Program-made: the position numbers and the translations under genes | From: Bathymodiolus brooksi | Taxonomy: Eukaryota; Mollusca; Bivalvia; Mytilida; Modiolidae | Reading direction: 5' to 3' | Assembly: GCA_963680875.1 (NCBI GenBank) | Contig: OY804585.1 | Location: forward strand, 31,610,186 to 31,674,185 | Length of the DNA: 64,000 nt | In this document: positions 5,401-51,400 of the stretch, in pieces | How the letters are laid out: every line of letters begins with the position of its first letter | Position numbering within the stretch: position 1 is the first letter of the stretch | The notes under the pieces: generated by a model | What the model saw: only the letters and a program-made list of their open reading frames with translations | Databases searched by the model: none | What the model was told of the DNA's origin: nothing

Positions 5401-6262
5401 AAGAACTATCTTTTATCCAGAGTGGTTCAATAGGGGTGTAAAGTTTGTTAACGATTTTGTCAATGATGATGGTTCTTTTCTGACTTTAGATCAGTTTTCA
5501 AACAAATTTGGATTTTGTGTAAATTTTTTGCAATATAATGGGGTTATTAGTTCTTTACGACAAATGCTAAAATTATATCCATATGGAGACAAATCATCTA
5601 ATTTACAGACTCCTTTTGTCCCATCATCTCTACAAAATATTTTTCGAAGTTCTAAAGGTTCAAAAGATATGTACACAATTCTAAATAAAAACAGTAGTTT
5701 TCCTACAGCTCAAAGAAAATGGAATACAGTTTTTGATATTAATTCAAATGAGTGGAAACAAATTTATATACTCCCTTTTAAAGCTACAGCATGTACAAAA
5801 TTACATTGGTTTCAATTTAGAATAAACCACAATATTCTGGCTACTAATTATTTCCTGAAAAAAATTAAAATTATTGATGATGCAAATTGTAATTTTTGCC
5901 AAAAGGAAAATGAAACAATTGAACACATTTTTTGGGGTTGTGAAAATGTACAAAATCTTCTAGGGCAAGTAAATTCTTGGTTCGGTGACAAAGACATAAA
6001 CCAAACATTTTTAAAGAAGACTCTAATTTTTGGGGATGTTGATAAAGTATATAAAGATGATGTATACAATGCCATTTTACTAAACATAAAATACTATATA
6101 TATACAAACAGATGTCTGAAGAAAAAATTATCCATTCATTCGCTTAAAGCCTGTTTGATAAATTTATATAAAACTGAAAAAATGATTGCTGTCCGAAATC
6201 AAAGAATTGCAGAATTTCAATTACATTGGAGTACTTTTGAAAAACTGTTTGAGGATTGTTGA
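2473..6262 (+). pseudogene. LINE endonuclease-reverse transcriptase ORF, two stops and one frameshift
   Basis: The N-terminal ~230 residues are an APE-type endonuclease: SVNCQGLG near residue 8, GDFNL, and a terminal RSDHS motif. The reverse transcriptase follows in the same frame after two in-frame TAA codons (3730-3732 and 3739-3741). Visible motifs are NWRPISLLN, QTGFIAGRYIGENIR, DFEKAFDS, GCRQGDPLSPYLF and the catalytic FADDT (about 4603). The C-terminal part continues in the next frame from about 4877. The shift falls in an A-homopolymer at 4868-4876, so a sequencing error is possible there. A zinc-finger zf-RVT motif (CNFC...EHIFWGC) sits near 5890-5945. The domain order fits L1/Tx1-clade elements. 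With these lesions it should not encode a full protein. Confidence 0.88.
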
Positions 6263-6822
6263 CATAGTTTTTATTCTTATGTAAATTCCCTTTACATAGA
6301 GATTCCACTAAATACTAACTGATATAGTATATCTAAATATACTTTTCTTGTTTATATTTACTATACTATAGTATACTTTATAGTATATTCATTATGGGAT
6401 AATTAAAACAATATGAATATTTGATCCATCCAAATAATACTTTTGTATATCTGGTACAGTGTTATAGTCCAATTGATTGTTTGCACCAGGCCAGACCATA
6501 AAAGTTTTACATATAAATGCCAATATAAAGTACAATCTCATCTTCTCAATGTCTTTTCTTTTTTTCTTTTTTTTCTTTTTAAAAATACACTAAAATTCTT
6601 ATCTACTTTTTTTCCTAATTATACAAAATTTTTTTTTATCACATATATCAATAGTAAACAATATACATATGATTATACATTGTATATTGGAAAAGATTGT
6701 AAGAAGATTTAATTGTACTTTACTATATAGATTGTATGATGTTTTATATGTTATTATATTATTGTACTCTATTCTGTATTGATGTATTTTGCAGTTGAGA
6801 AAAAAAAAAAAAAAAGAAAAAA
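6263..6822 (+). other. LINE 3' untranslated region and A-rich tail
   Basis: AT-rich sequence with T-runs (6550-6640) and several TATA/ATAT-rich stretches, closed by GAG(A)15 G(A)n at 6798-6825. The open frame at 6443-6712 is low-complexity and belongs to this untranslated region. Confidence 0.75.
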
Positions 6823-6944
6823 AAAGATGATTAAGCTATTTAAAATGGTAGAAAAGAAAAATGTGATATAATTATAGATTTCCCCCCTTATTTCGTTATA
6901 CACATGTGCACAAAATTTGCATTTGCCACATTCGACTTTGACAG

Positions 6945-7170
6945 TTGCTTTATAATCCAGGTCGTTGTGAGTTTGAATCCCACTCAGGAGAGGTGTACTC
7001 GATACAACATTATGTGATAAAGATTGTCAGTGACTTGCAGCAAGTCAGTGATTTTCTCCGGGTAATCCGGTTTCCTCCACCAATAAAACTGATTGACGAT
7101 TTAACTGAAATATTGTTAAAAGTGGTGCTAGACACCATAACCCTAAACCTAATGCCTATAATCCAGGTTA
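6945..7170 (+). mobile_element. tRNA-derived SINE (window's common family)
   Basis: It contains a B-box-like GTGAGTTTGAATCCC, then GATACAACATTATGTGATAA, CTTTCCTCCACCAATAAAAC-type sequence and the tail ATATTGTTAAAAGTGGTGC. It ends in ACCATAACCCTAAACC. At least twelve further copies or fragments lie in the window in both orientations. The layout resembles mollusc SINEs with a conserved central domain (V-SINE/MetaSINE type); the family name is my inference. Confidence 0.75.
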
Positions 7171-32118: not shown

Positions 32119-35100
32119 TCATAGAGTTGTCTCCCCTTTTATAGATGTGTTAAGTAAACCAGTATCTGGTGCCGATTCAGTTATCAGTTTCTGTATTGGT
32201 TTAAATTTAGGATGAGCTGCATCACCACACAGTCCTAACAACATGCACTCACTGGTGGTAAGATATGCCCCTGCTTCTCTCATTCTCTGGAAGGCAAACA
32301 TTCTGAAAAATATTCAAAAGATGTGTATTAAAAAAAATGGTATATTTGGCTGCTCTTTCTCTTTTTTTTTTTTTTTTTTCAATCCAACAATTTTTTTTGT
32401 TGGTAGTTGTTCTGATGGTTCAGTCTTTTATTTTTCAGGTGTATTATAAGAAGCAGGAACTGCTGACACTTGGCGAGCATCTGGGTTCATCCCCAGTTTT
32501 TGGTGAGATCTGTGCTACTCATCTTTTTAGCTTTCTATGTTGTGTTGTGTTTGTGTGTTTCGTTTATCTTCGTCCTCTGTCTTGACTGCCCAATGTTGTC
32601 TCTCTATTGTCCATTCTTCATTGCACCTTCTGTTTTCTCTAAAGTTTATTTTATTTACTGTTATCAGTAATTCAGGCAAGTTTTCCTTGATCTCTACTAA
32701 TCAATTAAATCTGTATCAGAAAATGACACGATTCAAACAAATTTTTTTATGGAGAAATCTATACCTGTACAGGCAAAATTGCTTAAAAGAATTGTCTTCT
32801 AAAAATAAACAAACAAAAATAGGTAAAATATCATCTGGCTGCAACCAGAGTTAAATTTTGCTGTTATCAAAATCAATAAAAAATCCCAAGGAAGACCAAA
32901 ATTTGTACTGGTTTATTTTATGTCAAAGACACATGATTTCTGTTGTTTGTAATTAAATTATGAATGAACTCAATTTTGTAGGAATCATAAAGAATAAATA
33001 TGTGAAAACATCATGAAGATAAAAAATGTGAAACAGTGCCACCTGTCATCTAAATTTACCAACAGAAAAATGAGATAATCTTTTTCTATCTATCAATCAT
33101 TTTGTCAACTGTGAGAAAGTGTAGACAAAATATCTATGCAACAAAGTTGTCAAGAATACCCAGGTTTACCTGTCTGTCATTGATCTTGATGAACAGGCAT
33201 TGGCTATTAGGTGAATATCAAAGTTGTCTTACCTGTCTGACATTGACCTTGAAGAGCAGGCATCAGCTATTAGGTGAACATCAAAGTTGTCTCACCAGTC
33301 TGTCATTGACCTTGATGAGCAGGCATAAGCTATTAGGTCAACATCAAAGTTGTCTTACCTGTCTGTCATTGACCTTGATGAGCAGGCATCAGCTATTAGG
33401 TGAACATCAAAGTTGTCTTACCAGTCTGTTATTGACCTTGATGAGCAGGCATAAGCTATTAGGTCAACATCAAAGTTGTCTTACCTGTCTGTCATTGACC
33501 TTGATGAGCAGACATCAGCTATTAGGCGAACATCAAAGTTGTCTTACCTGACTGTCATTGACCTTGATGAGCAGGCATCGGCTATTAGGTGAACATCAAA
33601 GTTGTCTTACCTGTCCGTCATCGTCCTTGATGAGCAGAAATCAGCTATTAGGTGAACATCAAAGTTGTCTTACCTGTCCGTCATCGACCTTGATGAGCAG
33701 ACATCAGTTATTAGGTGAACATCAAAGTTGTCTTACCTGTATGTCATTAACCTTGATGAGCAGGCATCAGCTATTAGGTGAACATCAAAGTTGTCTTACC
33801 TGTCCGTCATCGACCTTGATGAGCAGGCATCAGCTATTAGGTGAACATCAAAATTGTCTTACCTGTCCGTCATTGACCTTGATGAGCAGGCATCAGCTAT
33901 TACGTGAACATCAAAATTGTCTTACCTGACTCATTGACCTTGATGAGCAGGCATCGGCTATTATGTGAACATCAAAATTGTCTTGCCTGTCCGTCATCGA
34001 CCTTGATGAGCAGACATCAGCTATTAGGTGAACATCAAAGTTGTCTTACCTGTATGTCATTGACCTTGATGAGCAGGCATCAGCTATTAGGTGAACATCA
34101 AAGTTGTCTTACCTGTCCGTCATCGACCTTGATGACCAGGCATCAGCTATTAGGTGAACATCAAAGTTGTCTTACCTGTCCGTCATCGACCTTGATGAGC
34201 AGGCATCAGCTATTAGGTGAACATCAAAGTTGTCTTACCTGTCCGTCATCGACCTTGATGAGCAGACATCAGCTATTAGGTGAACATTAAAGTTGTCTTA
34301 CCTGTATGTCATTGACCTTGATGAGCAGGCATCAGCTATTAGGTGAACATCAAAGTTGTCTTACCTGTCCGTCATCGACCTTGATGAGCAGGCATCAGCT
34401 ACCGGTATTAGGTGAACATCAAAGTTGTCTTATCTGTCCGTCATCGACCTTGATGAGCAGGCATCAGCTATTAGGTGAACATCAAAATTGTCTTACCTGT
34501 CCATCATCGACCTTAATGAGCAGGCATCAGCTATTAGGTGAAGATCAAAGTTGTCTTACCTGTTTGTCATCGACCTTGATGAGCAGGCATCAGCTATTAG
34601 GTGAACATCAAAGTTGTCTTACCTCTCTGTCATTGACCTTGATGAGCAGGCATCAGCTATTAGGTGAACATCAAAGTTGTCTTACCTGTCCATCATCGAC
34701 CTTGATGAGCAGGCATCAGCTATTAGGTGAGCATCAAAATTGTCTTACCTGTCCGTCATCGACCTTAATGAGCAGGCATCAGCTATTAGGTGAACATCAA
34801 AGTTGTCTTACCTGTCTGTCATCGACCTTGATGAGCAGGCATCAGCTAATTAGGTGAACATCAAAGTTATCTTACCTGTCCGTCATTGACCTTGATGAGC
34901 AGGCATCAGCTATTAGGTGAACATCAAAGTTATCTTACCTGTCCGTCATTGACCTTGATGAGCAGGCATCAGCTATTAGGTGAACATCAAAGTTGTCTTA
35001 CCTGTCTGTCATTGACCTTGATGAGCAGGCATCAGCTATTACGTGAACATCAAAGTTATCTTACCTGTCTGTCATTAACCTTGATGAGCAGGCATCAGCT

Positions 35101-38100
35101 ATTAGGTGAACATCAAAGTTTGTCTCATCAGTCTGTCATTGACCTTGATGAGCAGGCATCAGCTATTAGGTCAACATCAAAGTTGTCTTACCTGTCTGTC
35201 ATTGACCTTGATGAGCAGGCATCAGCTATTAGGTGAACATCAAAGTTGTCTTACCTGACTGTCATTGACCTTGATGAGCAGGCATCGGCTATTAGGTGAA
35301 CATCAAAGTTGTCTTACCTGTCCGTCATCGACCTTGATGAGCAGACATCAGCTATTAGGTGAACATCAAAGTTGTCTTACCTGTCCGTCATCGACCTTGA
35401 TGAGCAGACATCAGCTATTAGGTGAACATCAAAGTTGTCTTACCTGTATGTCATTGACTTTGATGAGCAGGCATCAGCTATTAGGTGAATATCAAAGTTG
35501 TCTTACCTGTCCGTCATCGACCTTGATGAGCAGGCATCAGCTGTTAGGTGAACATCAAAATTGTCTTACCTGTCTGTCATTAACCTCGATGAGCAGACAT
35601 CAGCTATTAGGTGAACATCAAAATTGTCTTACCTGACTGTCATTGACCTTGATGAGCAGGCATCGGCTATTAGGTGAACATCAAAGTTGTCTTACCTGTC
35701 CGTCATCGACCTTGATTAGCAGGCATCAGCTATTAGGTGAACATCAAAGTTGTCTTACCTGTCCGTCATCGACCTTGATGAGCAGACATCAGCTTTTAGG
35801 TGAACATCAAAGTTGTCTTACCTGTATGTCATTGGCCTTGATGAGCAGGCATCAGCTATTCGGTGAACATCAAATTTGTCTTACCTGTCTGTCATCAACC
35901 TTGATGAGCAGGCATCGGCTATTAGGTGAACATCAAAATTGTCTTACCTGTCCATCATCGACCTTGATGAGCAGGCATCAGCTATTAGGTGAACATCAAA
36001 ATTGTCTTACCTGTCCGTCATCGACCTTAATGAGCAGGTATCAGCTATTAGGTCAACATCAAAGTTGTCTTACCTGTCTGTCATCGACCTTAATGAGCAG
36101 GCATCAGCTATTAGGTGAACATCAAAGTTATCTTACCTGTCCGTCATTGACCTTGATGAGCAGGCATCAGCTATTAGGTGAACATCAAAGTTGTCTTACC
36201 TGTCTGTCATTAACCTTGATGAGCAGGCATCAGCTATTACGTGAACATCAAAGTTATCTTACCTGTCTGTCATTAACCTTGATGAGCAGGCATCAGCTAT
36301 TAGGTGAACATCAAAGTTATCTTACCTGTCCGTCATTGACCTTGATGAGCAGGCATCAGCTATTAGGTGAACATCAAAGTTATCTTACCTGTCCGTCATT
36401 GACCTTGATGAGCAGGCATCAGCTATTAGGTGAACATCAAAGTTGTCTTACCTGTCTGTCATTAACATTGATCAGCAGGCATCAGCTATTACGTGAACAT
36501 CAAAGTTATCTTACCTGTCTGTCATTAACCTTGATGAGCAGGCATCAGCTATTAGGTGAACATCAAAGTTATCTTACCTGTCTGTCATTAACCTTGATGA
36601 GCAGGCATCAGCTATTAGGTGAACATCAAAGTTGTCTTACCTGTCTGTCATCGACCTTGATGAGCAGGCATCAGCTATTAGGTGAACATCAAAGTTATCT
36701 TACCTGTCCGTCATTGACCTTGATGAGCAGGCATCAGCTATTAGGTGAACATCAAAGTTATCTTACCTGTCCGTCATTAACCTTGATGAGCAGGCATCAG
36801 CTATTAGGTGAACATCAAAGTTATCTTACCTGTCTGTCATTGACCTTGATGAGCAGGCATCAGCTATTAGGTGAACATCAAAGTTGTCTTCAAGAAGATC
36901 TAATACTGTATTCTGTATACAAACATGATTCTCTATTCCACATAATATTACAGACTTTACATCTGAAATGTAAAACAACATGATGGAAGTCCTCACGATG
37001 AACACAAGTCCTCCGGCCCAAGACCATTAAAACTTTGTTCGGACCAGTAAATTTTTCAGTTTTTATTTTGATATACATAAAAAATAAATTCTAGAATTTG
37101 ATTCGGACCAGTAAATTCAAATTTTGATTTTGAGTACTGTGATGGGGTCAGTGGGGAATTTGTTTGCATGAACTCAACTAGAGGTAATGTATATTCAATA
37201 CTAATATTAGTGGCACTAATGTAAGTGCCACATAAAGTAAAAAATGTATTGGCAATGAGTAATAAAAGGGTACACTTGACGGTAGCATGAAACAACCACA
37301 ACTAATCAATGCAAAAATGTTTGAACACGTGTATTTTAAAACAGGCTGTGGATACAATGTATCTTAATTTATAATAAAAACCCTTTTTAGCACTTTTTGG
37401 CCTCTTGTTTTGCAGGTTTTTTTTTTGGAAAGGGGATAGGCTTGAATTACCCAAAATCTATCCATCCATTTCTTCTGTGCCAAGGATTATTGTGTTGAAA
37501 TCTCAGAAGAATTCGTCAATTAGAAACTTAAGTTATTATGAAAAATATGTGTCAAAAAGCAGCAACTACCAATGTTATAGTCTTTGGTTGATCTAACGAG
37601 GGATCAAACCATGTTTTACAGCACTCCAGGCATGCTCATTAAACCACAGCACTCCCGGCATGCTCATTAAACCACAGCACTCCCGGCATGCTCATTAAAC
37701 CACAGCACTCCCGGCATGCTCATTAAACCACAGCACTCCCGGCATGCTCATTAAACCACAGATGCCGTCATGATACTACAGCACTCGAGGCTCATTAAAC
37801 CACAGATACCGTCATGATACTACAGCACTCGAGGCATGCTCATTAAACCACAGATGCCTTGGTTGCTCTAACGAGGGATCAAACCATGTTCTACAGCACT
37901 CGAGGCATGCTCATTAAACCACAGATGCCTTGGTTGATCTAACGAGGGATCAAACCATGTTCTACAGCACTCGAGGCATGCTCATTAAACCACTGATGCC
38001 ATCATGTTCTACAGCACTCGAGGCATGCTCATTAAACCACTGATGCCGTCATGTTCTACAGCAATCGAGGCATGCTCATTAAACCACAGATGCTGTCATG

Positions 38101-41100
38101 TTCTACAGCACTCGAGGCATGCTCATTAAACCACTGATACCGTCATGTTCTACAGCACTCGAGGCATGCTCATTAAACCATCGATGCCATCATGTTCTAC
38201 AGCACTCGAGGCATGCTCATTAAACCACCGATGCCGTCATGTTCTACAGCACTCGATGCATGCTCATTAAACCACAGATGCTGTCATGTTCTACAGCACT
38301 CGAGGCATGCTCATTATACCACTGATGCCGTCATGTTCTACAGCACTCGAGGCATGCTCTTAAAACCACAGATGCTGTCATGTTCTACAGCACTCGAGGC
38401 ATGCTCATTAAACCACAGATGCTGTCATGTTCTACAGCACTCGAGGCATGCTCATTAGACCACAGATGCTGTCATGTTCTACAGCACTCGAGGCATGCTC
38501 ATTAAACCACTGATGCCGTCATGTTCTACAGCACTCGAGGCATGCTCATTAAACCATCGATGCCGTCATGTTCTACAGCACTCGAGGCATGCTCATTAAA
38601 CCACTGATGCCGTCATGTTCTACAGCACTCGAGGCATGCTCATTAAACCACAGATGCTGTCATGTTCTACAGCACTCGAGGCATGCTCATTAAACCACAG
38701 ATGCTGTCATGATACTACAGCACTCGAGGCATGCTCATTAAACCACTGATGCCGTCATGTTCTACAGCACTCAAGGCATGCTCATTAAACCACAGATGCT
38801 GTCATGTTCTACAGCCCTCGAGGCATGCTCATTAAACCACAGATGCTGTCATGTTCTACAGCACTCGAGGCATGCTCATTAGACCACAGATGCTGTCATG
38901 TTCTACAGCACTCGAGGCATGCTCATTAAACCACAGATTCTGTCATGTTCTACAGCACTCGAGGCATGCTCATTAAACCAATGATGCCGTCATGTTCTAC
39001 AGCACTCGAGGCATGCTCATTAAACCACAGATGCTGTCATGTTCTACAGCACTCGAGGCATGCTCATTAAACCACTGATGCCGTCATGTTCTACAGCACT
39101 CGAGGCATGCTCATTAAACCACAGATGCTGTCATGTTCTACAGCACTCGAGGCATGCTCATTAAACCACAGATGCCGTCATGTTCTACAGCACTCGAGGC
39201 ATGCTCATTAGACCACAGATGCTGTCATGTTCTACAGCACTCGAGGCATGCTCATTAAACCACTGATGCCATCATGTTCTACAGCACTCGAGGCATGCTC
39301 ATTAGACCACAGATGCTGTCATGTTCTACAGCACTCGAGGCATGCTCATTAAACCACTGATGCCGTCATGTTCTACAGCACTCGAGGCATGCTCATTAAA
39401 CCATCAATGCCGTCATGTTCTACAGCACTCGAGGCATGCTCATTAAACCACTGATGCCGTCATGTTCTACAGCACTCGAGGCATGCTCATTAAACCACAG
39501 ATGCTGTCATGTTCTACAGCACTCAAGGCATGCTCATTAAACCACAGATGCTGTCATGATACTACAGCACTCGAGGCATGCTCATTAAACCACTGATGCC
39601 GTCATGTTCTACAGCACTCGAGGCATGCTCATTAAACCACAGATGCTGTCATGTTCTACAGCACTCGAGGCATGCTCATTAAACCACAGATGCTGTCATG
39701 TTCTACAGCACTCGAGGCATGCTCATTAAACCAATGATGCCGTCATGTTCTACTGCACTCGAGGCATGCTCATTAAACCACAGATGCTGTCATGATAATG
39801 ACGATGAAACACCAATAATATAATACAACCTCAAAACTTATTTTTGCTGTTATTTATAAACAACGAATTCAAGTGACGAAGACCACTGTATTTTTTGAAA
39901 ATTCATGAACATTAATACCAATGATAATAAATCAATTTACAGTTGGTAGTTCTTACCTAGACCATTTCTATTAAGTTATGAACATGAAAATGACATATTA
40001 TATATAATCCTGTGGTGTCTGTTCCAAGCTAGGACCTGGATTTCTTAATGTCATACGTCATGGTCTTTTTTATGTTCAGTGGTTTGAAGTTTGAAGTGAG
40101 AGGTGGTTGTTCGTTTTGTTGATATTGATGGAATTGTTGACCATCACTGTTTGAACTTTCTTTCCATAATTATATATGCTCTGTCTTTTTATGCACAATA
40201 TGCTATATAGTGAGTTATTTTGGAAAGTAGAAAATTTGATAAGAAAACATTTTTTATTTTATTTTCAAGAACATTACTACAGTTAGTACTTTACTTTTTG
40301 ACATTATTAAAAGAATTGTCAAAGGTATAATAAACACAACTTAGTTGTAAAGTTTATCCGTGACTTGAAACAATTTGGTAGTTTTCTCCAAGTACTAAGG
40401 TCCTCCACCAATATAAAATTGACTACAACTAAATAGTATTAATAATATTGCCGATGTTGACACTAATAACCTGATAATTTAAGAAATAATTTTGGCAATA
40501 CAAATATTGGTGTCTAATAAATTTTTATAATACACTAGAAACAATGAAGGAATATATTCTACTTTTATTTTTTTATTTTTAAATATAATGATATGTTACC
40601 TGGTAATGTTTTTATGTGATCTACAACAGCTGGTACTAACATAGAGAAACTGGTCTTAGGAAATACTTTCTCTTTACTGACGTCCATCTCAGAAACAGTA
40701 GGACCCAGACCTGAAACAAAATACAAAACTATCATATGTCAACATACACTGACAATAAACAGTAGGACCCAGACCTGAAACAAAATACAAAACTATCATA
40801 TGTCAACATACACTGACAATAAACAGTAGGACCCAAACCTAAACAAAATATAGAACAATTAAATATGTCAACAGACATTGTCAAGAAAAATATACTTTTA
40901 TACAGAGCTACTAAACTGGGGGGGAGTTTGCTGTACAAAAAAAAAAGAATAAAAAAAAAGAAAATAAATTATAATTAAACATCATAATTCTAAACCTAAA
41001 CCAAATTTTGGAAAATGTTATAACTGTCATCTATATGCATATATATATATGTATTTGGAGATTTGGGCTGGGATTAAAAAAAAACCCCTTATTTGTAGCA

Positions 41101-41767
41101 TGCGACCACAGTGTTCCTTCTCTACCTCAAAATCTACAAAATGGGTATTTCAACATGTCTGGATTGAGCTTTCTCCAAATACATGTACAGTTGTAAGGTA
41201 CATAAGTACAGTCAGGCTATCCAGACAACACTCGATCGAGATGGCGTCTTTTATATTAGTCAGCTGGGGATGTGTTGGGAAGTTCTGTGGGACAAGTCCT
41301 GGGGCTTGTCACCACTACCCAGTGTTGATGTAGAAGTGTGTACTGTTTTTATTATTGACAAAATATTGTTCTATATATATAATTCTATATATAATAAGTT
41401 AACACGTGTTCATGAATTTATATGTACATTTTAAAGCCTTTTCTGCACAACAAAATTTTAAGACAGTTCCATGTTTCCTATGATTATGACGTATATTCAA
41501 TCAATAGACCTCATAGTGTATTTTGAAAATTGAATGAAAACTTTGAGCAAGTTGAGGTCTATATTTATGACCTAGATTTTAACCTTTTGGATATTGTTCA
41601 GTGACAACCACTGGCATGTCAAGTATTTTAGCAGCTTGTAGCATTCTGTTGGCTACGGTGATAATCTGTGGATAATAAACAATGTTTCCTCTAAATTTTT
41701 CTTGCATGTCACACAAGAAAAGAGCTGTGTTCTTCAGATTTATCTTTCCCAACCTTCTGGCTGCCAT
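32119..41767 (-). CDS. ISOC2: Isochorismatase domain-containing protein 2-like hydrolase, four exons
   Basis: Minus-strand exons: 41767-41584, 40710-40600, 36962-36830, 32302-32119. All introns are GT-AG and the spliced frame gives 203 aa (human ISOC2 205). The ATG at 41767 has a strong ACCATGG context. The family's catalytic triad is present: Asp20 in FLCDMQEKF, Lys80 in FPKTSFSM, and the nucleophile Cys113 in [21 protein letters not shown] (132-143) closes exon 3, and the last exon carries [21 protein letters not shown]. Animal ISOC2 is a small cytosolic/mitochondrial hydrolase-like protein whose physiological substrate is unsettled. Intron 3 is largely a 63-bp satellite copied from exon 3, intron 2 holds a 47-bp array, and the exon 2 acceptor is duplicated; splicing may therefore be error-prone. 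Confidence 0.94.
32303..33162 (-). other. ISOC2 intron 3, part outside the array
   Basis: Contains a T20-like run (32361-32380) and no recognised element. The short plus-strand frames at 32243-32854 overlap the T-run and intron and look spurious. Confidence 0.4.
33163..36888 (-). repeat. 63-bp minisatellite derived from ISOC2 exon 3 plus its donor site (~59 copies)
   Basis: Read on the minus strand, each unit encodes [10 protein letters not shown] then [10 protein letters not shown] and an in-frame TAA formed by the intron's GTAA. The first unit (36888-36826) is the real end of exon 3 with the authentic donor at 36829. Copy number is estimated from length (3726 bp / 63). Most copies keep the donor core CAG|GTAAGA. 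Many differences between copies are synonymous third-position changes or cluster as shared variants, which suggests repeated local duplication. Long plus-strand open frames (up to 446 aa) arise because 63 is a multiple of three. Confidence 0.95.
36987..37140. mobile_element. Small MITE-like element next to the ISOC2 exon 3 acceptor
   Basis: It runs from AGTCCTCACGATGA to TTTGAGTACTGT and contains two GGACCAGTAAAT blocks. A second copy lies inverted at 50526-50684 in H6PD intron 2, ending TGAGGACTG. It starts 22 bp upstream of the exon 3 acceptor. Confidence 0.6.
37618..39795 (+). repeat. Hierarchical minisatellite (28-, 71- and mainly 47-bp units) in ISOC2 intron 2
   Basis: The left edge has four to five 28-bp units (CAGCACTCCCGGCATGCTCA start). 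Then come units with an extra TTGATCTAACGAGGGATCAA segment (about 71 bp). Most of the array (38000-39790) is about 38 copies of a 47-bp unit containing TCATGTTCTACAGCACTCGA. The units seem to have evolved by changing length from a single seed at 37587-37660. The 88-aa frame inside is spurious. Confidence 0.93.
40010..40170 (+). repeat. Dispersed repeat, first of three copies
   Basis: It contains AGGACCTGGATTTC, CATGGTCTTTTTTATGTTCA and GAATTGTTGACCATCACTGT. Other copies are at 52002-52555 (internally amplified) and 57525-57675. Confidence 0.7.
40350..40470 (+). mobile_element. Degraded SINE fragment
   Basis: GTAGTTTTCTCCAAGTACTA and CCTCCACCAATA match the SINE core, with many substitutions and no tRNA-like head. 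Confidence 0.45.
40695..40850 (-). repeat. 64-bp tandem duplication across the ISOC2 exon 2 acceptor
   Basis: The block holding the intron end (TTTTGTTTCAG) and exon start (GTCTGGGTCCTACTGTTT, minus strand) is present at 40695-40758, again at 40759-40822, and partly a third time to about 40850. Acceptor AGs are at 40711-40712 (authentic) and 40775-40776 (copy). The third copy has lost the AG context. Confidence 0.88.
40851..41583 (-). other. ISOC2 intron 1
   Basis: A-rich run (40938-40970) and otherwise unremarkable. The plus-strand frames at 41008-41434 overlap each other and have no family signature. Confidence 0.4.
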
Positions 41768-48378: not shown

Positions 48379-48421
48379 ATTATTTAGTTGAATGAGAATA
48401 ATAAAAAACTAAGAGACGAAG

Positions 48422-51400
48422 ATGAAGATCAACCTTGTTTTAATAATGGTCATGCTACAGTTGTCTGAAACAATAGATATTAACAGACACACTGACATTG
48501 TTTTAATAGGAGCTCAGGGTGACCTTTCTAAAAAATATCTCTGGAATTCAATTTTTAAACTTTATCTGAAATATTCTTCAAGTAACTCAACATTCAGATT
48601 TTTTGGATGTGGAAGGTCACCACCTAAGGAGGGACAAAAAACAACCAATGAAATATTACAAGAAAGAATAAAATGTGACAAAAACGATGTGAATTGTGTT
48701 GCTAAGCGACAATATTTTTTAAGCAATGTCAAGTATTTACCTGTTAAGAAAGAAGAAGATTTTGAAGTTCTTCGAAAAGAGCTAGATTCCTCCAAGGGAA
48801 ATGGTAAAGCAACTGGGAGAATACTGTACTTAGCGATCACTCCAAGTGCCTATGTTGATACATCATATAAACTTTATAATTGCTGTTACCATGCCAACCA
48901 GAACAGCTGGACACGATTGGTACTGGAAAAGCCGTTTGGTAGTGACCAAGCTTCAGCTCAGAAAATGGCTGCAGATATTTATAAGTATTATGTAGAGGAA
49001 GACATATTCAGAGTAGATCATTATCTTAGCAAGTCAGTTGTGAAAGAAATTTTACCATTCAGGTAATACAGGTAGTTTGAAGTTTTTGAAGGGGGGGGGG
49101 GGGGGGTGTATGGTGTATGGACAGTTTTATTGGTGGAGGAAACCAGAGTACCCAGGAATATCACCGACCTGCTGCAAGTTTGATACTGACAAACTTTATC
49201 ACATAATGTTGTATCGAGTACACCTCGCCTGAGTGGAATTCAAACTCACAACTTTAGTGGTGATAGGAACTGATTGCATAGGTAGTTGTAAATCCAACTA
49301 CCATACAATCACGGCAACAGTGGCCCCCAAAATATGTATAAGATCCTTTTATTCTTATCAGTATTATCAATAGGATAGTAAATTTGTTGTATGATCAAAA
49401 GTAAAAATTAATATTTAAGAGAAATAACAACAAGGTAAAATTTTTTTCTCTTTCCCTATTCATTTCCTGGAATGATAATTGTTGGTCATTGTGGTTATTA
49501 GTTCACAAAACATGAAGTGTTAAATATATTCTAATGTAGTACTGTTTTAGTCTTATAAAAACTATTTGTGCAAAACATGACATTACATAAAATTTTGTTT
49601 GTGTATTTTTGATGCATACCGGTAGATTATAGATGGTACTTGCAATTTTTGAGAATATTTCCTGATGGTCAGTTTTACTGTTGGAGGGAACCAGAGAACA
49701 CACAGAAAATGTTGACAAGCTGCAGGTTGCTTTAGGGATTGAAGACTAGCAAACCCTAGTAGGCACTGATTGTGCAGGTTTATGTAAATCTAGCTAACGT
49801 ATATATGTAGCATGACTGTCATGGAACCACAGATTTAACATACTGAAATTGCATGGCCATTCAATTATTTACAAAAAAATGTACCTGTATTAAACAGATT
49901 TCTCATTTTGATATTTCCTTTGTTTTATTTTACAGATTAGCAAATAAAGATAAATTAGAATATCTTCTTAGTAATAAACATGTAGAAAGGATAGAAATAG
50001 CAATCAAAGAAACCATTGGTGCTAAAGGTTAGTTTAAATAATGATAGTACCAAATGTTTTATTAAGAATTCAAAATACTGCCATGTTTTTTTTTTATATG
50101 AGGTCGCTTACGTACTAGCGGAAATTATAAATATTTGATTAATTAATTTTAAAAGCGTAAATTAATCGATTCACTTTTCTCTAAATATTAATTAAAAGAT
50201 CACCAAAAGAAGAAAACGGAAGTTCAACACTACTTTTTTTTTTAAATGAGCATCATATCGTTTGTATCGTAAGCGGCCTCCACGTATCGTGAACCGAACT
50301 GTCCCAAAATAATCGCTATTTCAGTACATACGGTGAATCGTTTCTCTCTTAGAATGGACACACCTTTCTGTACATGGGAAGAAGGACACATCCTTCTATT
50401 TTATCAGGAGGAATACTGACAAAAGCAGATCAGTGTTTTTTGCCCACATCAAAAGTGTCCGCTCTCTATCCATCCCATATTGATTTCTGTGGCTGTGCTG
50501 CACAAAGATGTGACCACAATGATCACAGTCCTCAAAATGAAAATTTGAATTTCCTGGTCCGAATCAAATTATTAGATTTATTTTCATATACATTGTAGTT
50601 TTAAATAAAAACCCCAAAAATTACTGTTCTGAACAAATTTTTACTGGTCTTGGGCAGGAGGACCGTTGCTCATCGTGAGGACTGTGATCAGGTTAAGTTT
50701 TATTTTGGCTGCTAAATCTTGTACAGGCCAAGAGTTAGGCCTATTATGGTCCCAGAGTTATGGACCCATAATAAATTAAAAAAGTTAATTTTTATATTTT
50801 TATTATATATTCATGAAGGTTATTGACTGCTGTACCAGACACTGCTTTCAGTTTATTATTAGCTTGAGGTAGGGGTATCTGTGTTCTATGGACACAATTT
50901 TTGTTGATTTTTGAACTGGTAATACCATTCTTTATCTCAGTCACGGTGAAGTCTTCAATGAAGAGTATAGCATATTTCTCAAATTGATTATGAAATAGGC
51001 CTAACCTTTCTAATCTGAACAGCTACCTTGTTCAGAACAAAAAAATGCTTGGATTGGACAGGTTTCAAGAGGGAGGGGTGGGATCCCATTAACCGGTTTA
51101 ACCCTGCCACATTTTTATACTGTTTTACCTCTGTCCGTCCGTCCAAGATATTTTTCTTCGCATTTTTCTCAGTAACTGTTGATGGCAGAAATCTGATATT
51201 TGGTCACAAGCGTCATATAGGTATACCATATTGTGGGTAGCGTTTTTGGACCCATCAGATTCCTACTTCCTGTTTACCGACTTTGTTGATTTTTATACAC
51301 ATTGAACATATATGCTCATTTTTAGTCACATTTTTCTCAGCAACTATTGATGGCAGAAATCTGATATTTGGTCACAAGCTCCATATAGGTACCCCATATC

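Follow-up and report, generated by a model that had tools for sequence, protein, structure and literature searches.

In an ISOC2-like gene of the mussel Bathymodiolus brooksi, a 59-unit, head-to-tail array of the end of exon 3 extends into intron 3, and most copies retain the 5′ splice site. The array is real as a sequence structure and, judged by its anatomy, is most likely a long, extreme form of the exon/intron-boundary minisatellites termed ‘mirages’ in amphioxus. Similar arrays recur in the same gene and elsewhere in the genome, and we consider it quite probable that the ISOC2 array is tolerated as a by-product. Positions refer to the window, the whole stretch of 64,000 nucleotides that was analysed (assembly GCA_963680875.1, contig OY804585.1, 31,610,186 to 31,674,185, forward strand).

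The ISOC2-like host gene

The gene is intact on conceptual joining of its exons, with four coding exons on the minus strand that encode an open protein of 203 amino acids. The features of the locus, in gene order, are:

41584–41767, minus strand: coding exon 1, from ATG (conceptual joining; Pfam Isochorismatase)
40693–40888, minus strand: stretch that holds the exon 2 acceptor and exon start three times in tandem at 64-bp spacing, with the authentic copy last (TRF, 64 bp × 3.0, 90%)
40600–40710, minus strand: exon 2 (conceptual joining)
37618–39794, no strand assigned: compound array in intron 2, mostly of 47-bp units (TRF), no relation to the exons having been noticed
36830–36962, minus strand: exon 3, 133 nt, with the authentic donor GT at 36829–36828 (conceptual joining)
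33168–36890, minus strand: head-to-tail array, 59 units each about 63 bp long (TRF and own segmentation); unit 1 (36890–36828) is the end of exon 3 together with its donor
33168–33230, minus strand: unit 59, the last (edge) unit, with donor CAGGTAAAC
32119–32302, minus strand: exon 4, coding portion, including the normal stop, absent from all predicted alternative products

The naming of the gene as ISOC2 in the initial annotation is supported by the Isochorismatase domain of the predicted protein (PF00857, E 2.9e-31) together with its full-length match to ISOC2-named proteins. Among the 120 protein matches listed, the best is from Mytilus galloprovincialis (90% identical over 99% of the query) and has an uninformative name; many of the named matches are called ‘isochorismatase domain-containing protein 2’, and an ‘isochorismatase domain-containing protein 2-like’ protein of Pecten maximus matches at 76% over 99% of the query. 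The intact exon 4 and the 90% Mytilus match imply correct exon joining. A short isoform from Mytilus californianus (P0008), considered as a related product, departs after ...GLCG, inside exon 4, and is unrelated. The paralogue on C6 has its donor at a different place, and no array is found in the 2 kb of L015 that were read. Elsewhere in the window, a 217-codon open frame on the plus strand (48413–49063) looks like glucose-6-phosphate dehydrogenase and may encode an enzyme of that family.

Structure of the exon 3-end array

TRF reports a period of 63 bp, 59.0 copies and 93% matches at 33166–36890, and our segmentation from 36890 down to 33168 gives 59 units, 55 of which are 63 bp long and the remaining four 64, 64, 69 and 61 bp; the roughly 59-fold amplification claimed in the initial annotation is borne out. 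Its account of the unit, as the end of exon 3 plus the first bases of intron 3 with the nearest copy authentic, is equally sound: the true exon end is unit 1, the edge copy nearest the exon, and all other copies reach into intron 3. Whether the unit is described as 59 exon nt plus 4 intron nt or as 61 plus 2, it is the same unit, because AA is common to exon and donor.

The array consensus is identical to the exon unit. There are 46 distinct sequences among the 59 units, and two inner ones are identical to the exon unit. Unit 59, at the far edge, has 5 differences from the exon unit against a mean of 2.8 over units 2–59; the same count is found in units 7, 14, 35 and 38, and unit 47 shows 6 differences. 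Two 8-unit blocks, units 22–29 and 49–56, are 97.2% identical, above all of 100 shuffles of the unit order, which suggests that a block was duplicated within the array; at block lengths of 3–6 units the shuffles are not surpassed, and at 9 units there is a tie. When the assembly (2.0 Gb, 136 contigs) was searched with a 121-base query from the exon and array start, only the best candidates being scored (one candidate stretch), all 58 matches fell within the array. The opposite strand has an open frame of 448 codons along the array (35637–36980, plus strand), probably a by-product of the repeat, 63 bp being 21 codons.

Donors and predicted splice products

The donor 9-mer CAGGTAAGA is present in 52/59 units, in agreement with the earlier statement that most copies retain CAG|GTAAGA, and GT itself in 56/59. 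The predicted pairing of the common array donor with U1 is −11.0 kcal/mol, compared with −4.1 for the exon 1 donor and −8.0 for the exon 2 donor. Each later donor would lengthen exon 3 by about 63 nt. It had been proposed that use of any donor other than the first leads to a TAA after RSMTDR and loss of the last exon; conceptual translation returns this result for every alternative donor (58/58), each giving an in-frame TAA after ...SSRSMTDR and an identical predicted truncated protein of 143 amino acids. The stop of the predicted 143-aa product lies at least 59 nt upstream of the last junction, and by the usual 50–55 nt rule the predicted alternative transcripts would be decay targets. From the last array donor to exon 4 there are 867 nt; intron 3 was perhaps shorter than 1 kb before the array expanded.

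Variation and exchange within the array

Forty-seven distinct point variants are present in the array, and 5 of them fall in the donor 9-mer against 6.7 expected (P 0.32), so there is no sign that the donors are either guarded or purged. By copy counts, the donor 9-mer ranks second of 63 circular 9-mer windows for non-consensus copies, tied with others; the donor window is thus among the quieter ones, a weak hint toward donor constraint.

The initial annotation described many of the variants as synonymous in the exon frame. This does not stand for distinct coding variants, of which 9/43 are synonymous against 21.5% expected, that is, the neutral rate; it does stand when variants are weighted by copies, since synonymous variants are found in more copies (mean 9.1 versus 2.1; P 0.0017 by permutation, 0.016 by rank test). 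The skew gives P 0.058 (rank test 0.20) when three CpG-type dinucleotides are left out, P 0.009 for transitions alone, and 0.126 for transitions with CpG-type columns removed. Neutral turnover does not fully account for it, and conversion between exon and array, one of the two sources considered in the initial annotation, may have contributed. Exchange between exon and array can also be judged at the 73-bp array on C1 described below, where the exon copy has 6 differences from the array consensus in the last 56 exon nt and the units average 0.43, which speaks against such exchange at that array.

Boundary arrays elsewhere in the genome

The same gene carries a small mirror image of the donor array in the acceptor copies of exon 2. 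The first exon bases of the three copies are 40838, 40774 and 40710, the authentic one being 40710, and the two extra acceptors, if used, would cause a frameshift with a stop after 96 or 89 amino acids.

Across the genome, tandem donor motifs are not enriched: a pattern of three donor motifs occurs 13589 + 15205 = 28794 times, against 18870 + 13542 = 32412 for the reversed control pattern. About 100 places matching the pattern were listed, all on C1, and five loci there were inspected. Exon-like open frames stand at the start of 2 of about 7 donor-bearing arrays in these loci, both in L053, and in each an exon-like segment is followed by an array of its own end and donor:

L053, 1717–1939: exon-end array, 38 bp × 5.8
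L053, 3281–7993: exon-end array, 73 bp × 64.6, 99% matches

GTAAGG is kept in all 65 donor sites found in the 73-bp array. The joined L053 frames match no Pfam family, so the evidence for these exons consists of open frames and of splice signals identified by visual inspection. In another locus, L049, a coiled-coil-like exon frame passes directly into an extended array whose units are short (about 5576–6953, gene sense), which is possibly a further exon-end array.

The frequency of such structures was estimated in two samples. The first comprises 60 regions (29 gene clusters) from 62 of 81 matches to the carrier family PF00153, each with about 200 bp on either flank. Exclusions were made blind to repeats and removed 10 matches in open frames of at least 221 aa, which are likely single-exon, and the 9 weakest; at least one retained region, L057, resembles an intron-less, stop-bearing copy. 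Six of the 60 regions have their own splice boundary in tandem copies (interval 3.8–20.5%), on the donor side in L060, L082, L084 and L105 and on the acceptor side in L094 and L102, the calls for L060, L094 and L102 resting on about two copies by TRF and reading by eye. The second sample, 14 regions from 16 of 22 AAA matches (excluding three on C101, two on C78 and one C4 match), contains no own-boundary copies (0/14), the array in L143 being purely intronic. Pooled, the samples give 6/74 regions (interval 3.0–16.8%). Two side observations come from the AAA matches. In L140 an entire AAA exon is duplicated side by side (253–417 and 463–627), both copies being open, with their own splice signals and 79% identical, and these are possible alternative exons. 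The open frames that hold the C101 matches are 676, 768 and 879 aa long, and C101 is perhaps a bacterial contaminant contig.

Tandem arrays are common in general. In 20 pieces of 1.5 kb taken at round-number positions (L115–L134), arrays of at least 2.8 copies cover 13.1 of 30 kb (44%) and occur in 10 pieces, and the same criterion gives 11.1 kb covered in the 64-kb window; minisatellites may be unusually abundant in this genome. If each boundary presents a target of 55 bp and arrays of at least 1.8 copies have the density seen in the window, the 74 regions should hold 3.3 boundary captures, against 6 found (P 0.12). For the first sample alone the expectation is 2.7 (P 0.055), or 2.2 from the sample's own density (P 0.025). 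Random placement of arrays roughly suffices to account for the boundary captures, and boundaries may mildly attract arrays.

Comparison with known systems

Mirages have been described in amphioxus Adh3, the globins BflGb6 and BflGb9 and troponin C, with similar repeats in PGBD5; they are minisatellite-like tandem duplications of an exon/intron boundary, at either exon end, in which many copies, not all, keep AG/GT and homogenisation skips the edge units (PMC3087553, PMC3902484). Mirages reportedly leave regular splicing undisturbed, and length and somatic instability is reported (PMC3087553, PMC3902484). The ISOC2 array is alike in its boundary-spanning units, in having the authentic boundary as an edge copy, and in keeping the signal in most units, and both 5′ and 3′ boundaries and several genes are affected here too. 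It has 59 copies in a mussel, whereas the haplotypes of BflGb6, in a lancelet, have 3 and 6; the comparison is one of anatomy.

In humans, the IFI6 minisatellite has short, 12-nt units in about 26 copies and yields in-frame isoforms. IFI6 (6-16, G1P3) has several donors in this exon-end minisatellite, and two downstream repeat units are used as donors (PMC4526556). The ISOC2 array differs in its 63-bp units and in that every predicted alternative product is truncated. Human duplicated genes also have variable internal tandem repeats at exon–intron boundaries that are able to alter splicing (PMC2812944); these differ in averaging 30-bp units in four copies and in having been detected between recent paralogues. 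The tandem duplication in potato RdRp crosses an intron–exon boundary, as in ISOC2, and created a new intron under the Rogers model (PMC4974935), although in potato it is a single duplication and the new intron is in use. A literature search found no boundary minisatellite in a mollusc, which carries little weight for print overall, with most subscription papers outside its coverage.

Function or by-product

Tandem arrays are prone to assembly errors, and the copy number could in principle be an artefact of this kind. That is highly improbable, given the 46 distinct sequences among the units, a window without N, and unrelated arrays of like kind at other loci of the assembly. Numerous strong U1 matches within one intron also bring to mind a selected platform for U1, in which intronic sites would block premature 3′-end formation or aid transcription without being used in splicing; protection by U1 against premature polyadenylation is an idea from work on U1 and polyadenylation. 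With the donors unconstrained, and tandem donor motifs genome-wide below their reversed control, we give this the lowest probability of all the readings. The initial annotation proposed a third role, in which the 59 donors compete, a longer array gives more truncated, decaying isoforms, and array length thereby sets ISOC2 output. The retention of GT and of the full motif, a predicted U1 pairing above that of the exon 1 and exon 2 donors, the identical truncation from all alternative donors and the precedent of repeat donors used in IFI6 (PMC4526556) all suit such tuning. The absence of donor constraint, the similar arrays at further sites of the genome and the amphioxus cases, reportedly harmless to splicing (PMC3087553, PMC3902484), speak against the proposal, which is not supported, and we regard it as unlikely. 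Lastly, the array could be an intermediate in the birth of an intron or exon, its copies being later recruited as one or the other, as the new intron of potato RdRp (PMC4974935) and a model proposed for the amphioxus globins (PMC3087553) would allow. Read on the minus strand, the array has many stops in each of its three frames (159, 113 and 101), and a recruited unit would therefore break the protein, which leaves this reading very unlikely.

We favour instead, as quite probable, a mirage-type by-product that is tolerated, a boundary minisatellite whose exon-proximal donor is the main one and whose effect on output is none to small. A short tandem duplication over the exon 3 end and its donor would have started the array, and slippage and unequal exchange would have expanded it, as at many sites of a minisatellite-rich genome. 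It would be tolerated with the exon-touching donor intact and the additional copies intronic. On precedent, exon definition would direct most splicing to the donor at 36829; any leak to donors 2–59 would give the single 143-aa frame and be expected to end in nonsense-mediated decay, with a net change in ISOC2 output that would be none to small. The recurrence of boundary arrays (at exon 2, twice in L053 and in 6/60 carrier-family regions), the high array coverage and the unconstrained donors support the by-product reading, as do the greater divergence of edge unit 59 and the 8-unit block duplication. With the same architecture at exon 2, L053 and 6/60 regions, a purpose specific to this gene is unneeded. 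Against it stand the 0/14 AAA regions, the 6 captures where 2.2 are expected, the use of donors in IFI6 and the synonymous skew. In a broader reading, which we rate as rather unlikely, very many exons of this genome carry tandem copies of their own boundary in unstable number, and this number serves as a dial, heritable and perhaps somatic, for the amount of transcript decay, with the 59 donors of ISOC2 as an extreme.

Significance

If the sampled rate holds (6/60 and 0/14), very many exons of this mussel would have almost exact copies of their splice site next to them. Equal splice sites in this genome call for caution from gene predictors and read aligners, and boundary arrays are relevant to the birth of introns from boundary duplications. 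The ISOC2 array raises a testable point, namely how splicing behaves with 59 near-equal donors, and at the sampled rate the genome would offer a natural test of an old question, how the exon-proximal site is chosen among equals and how much error is absorbed by decay.
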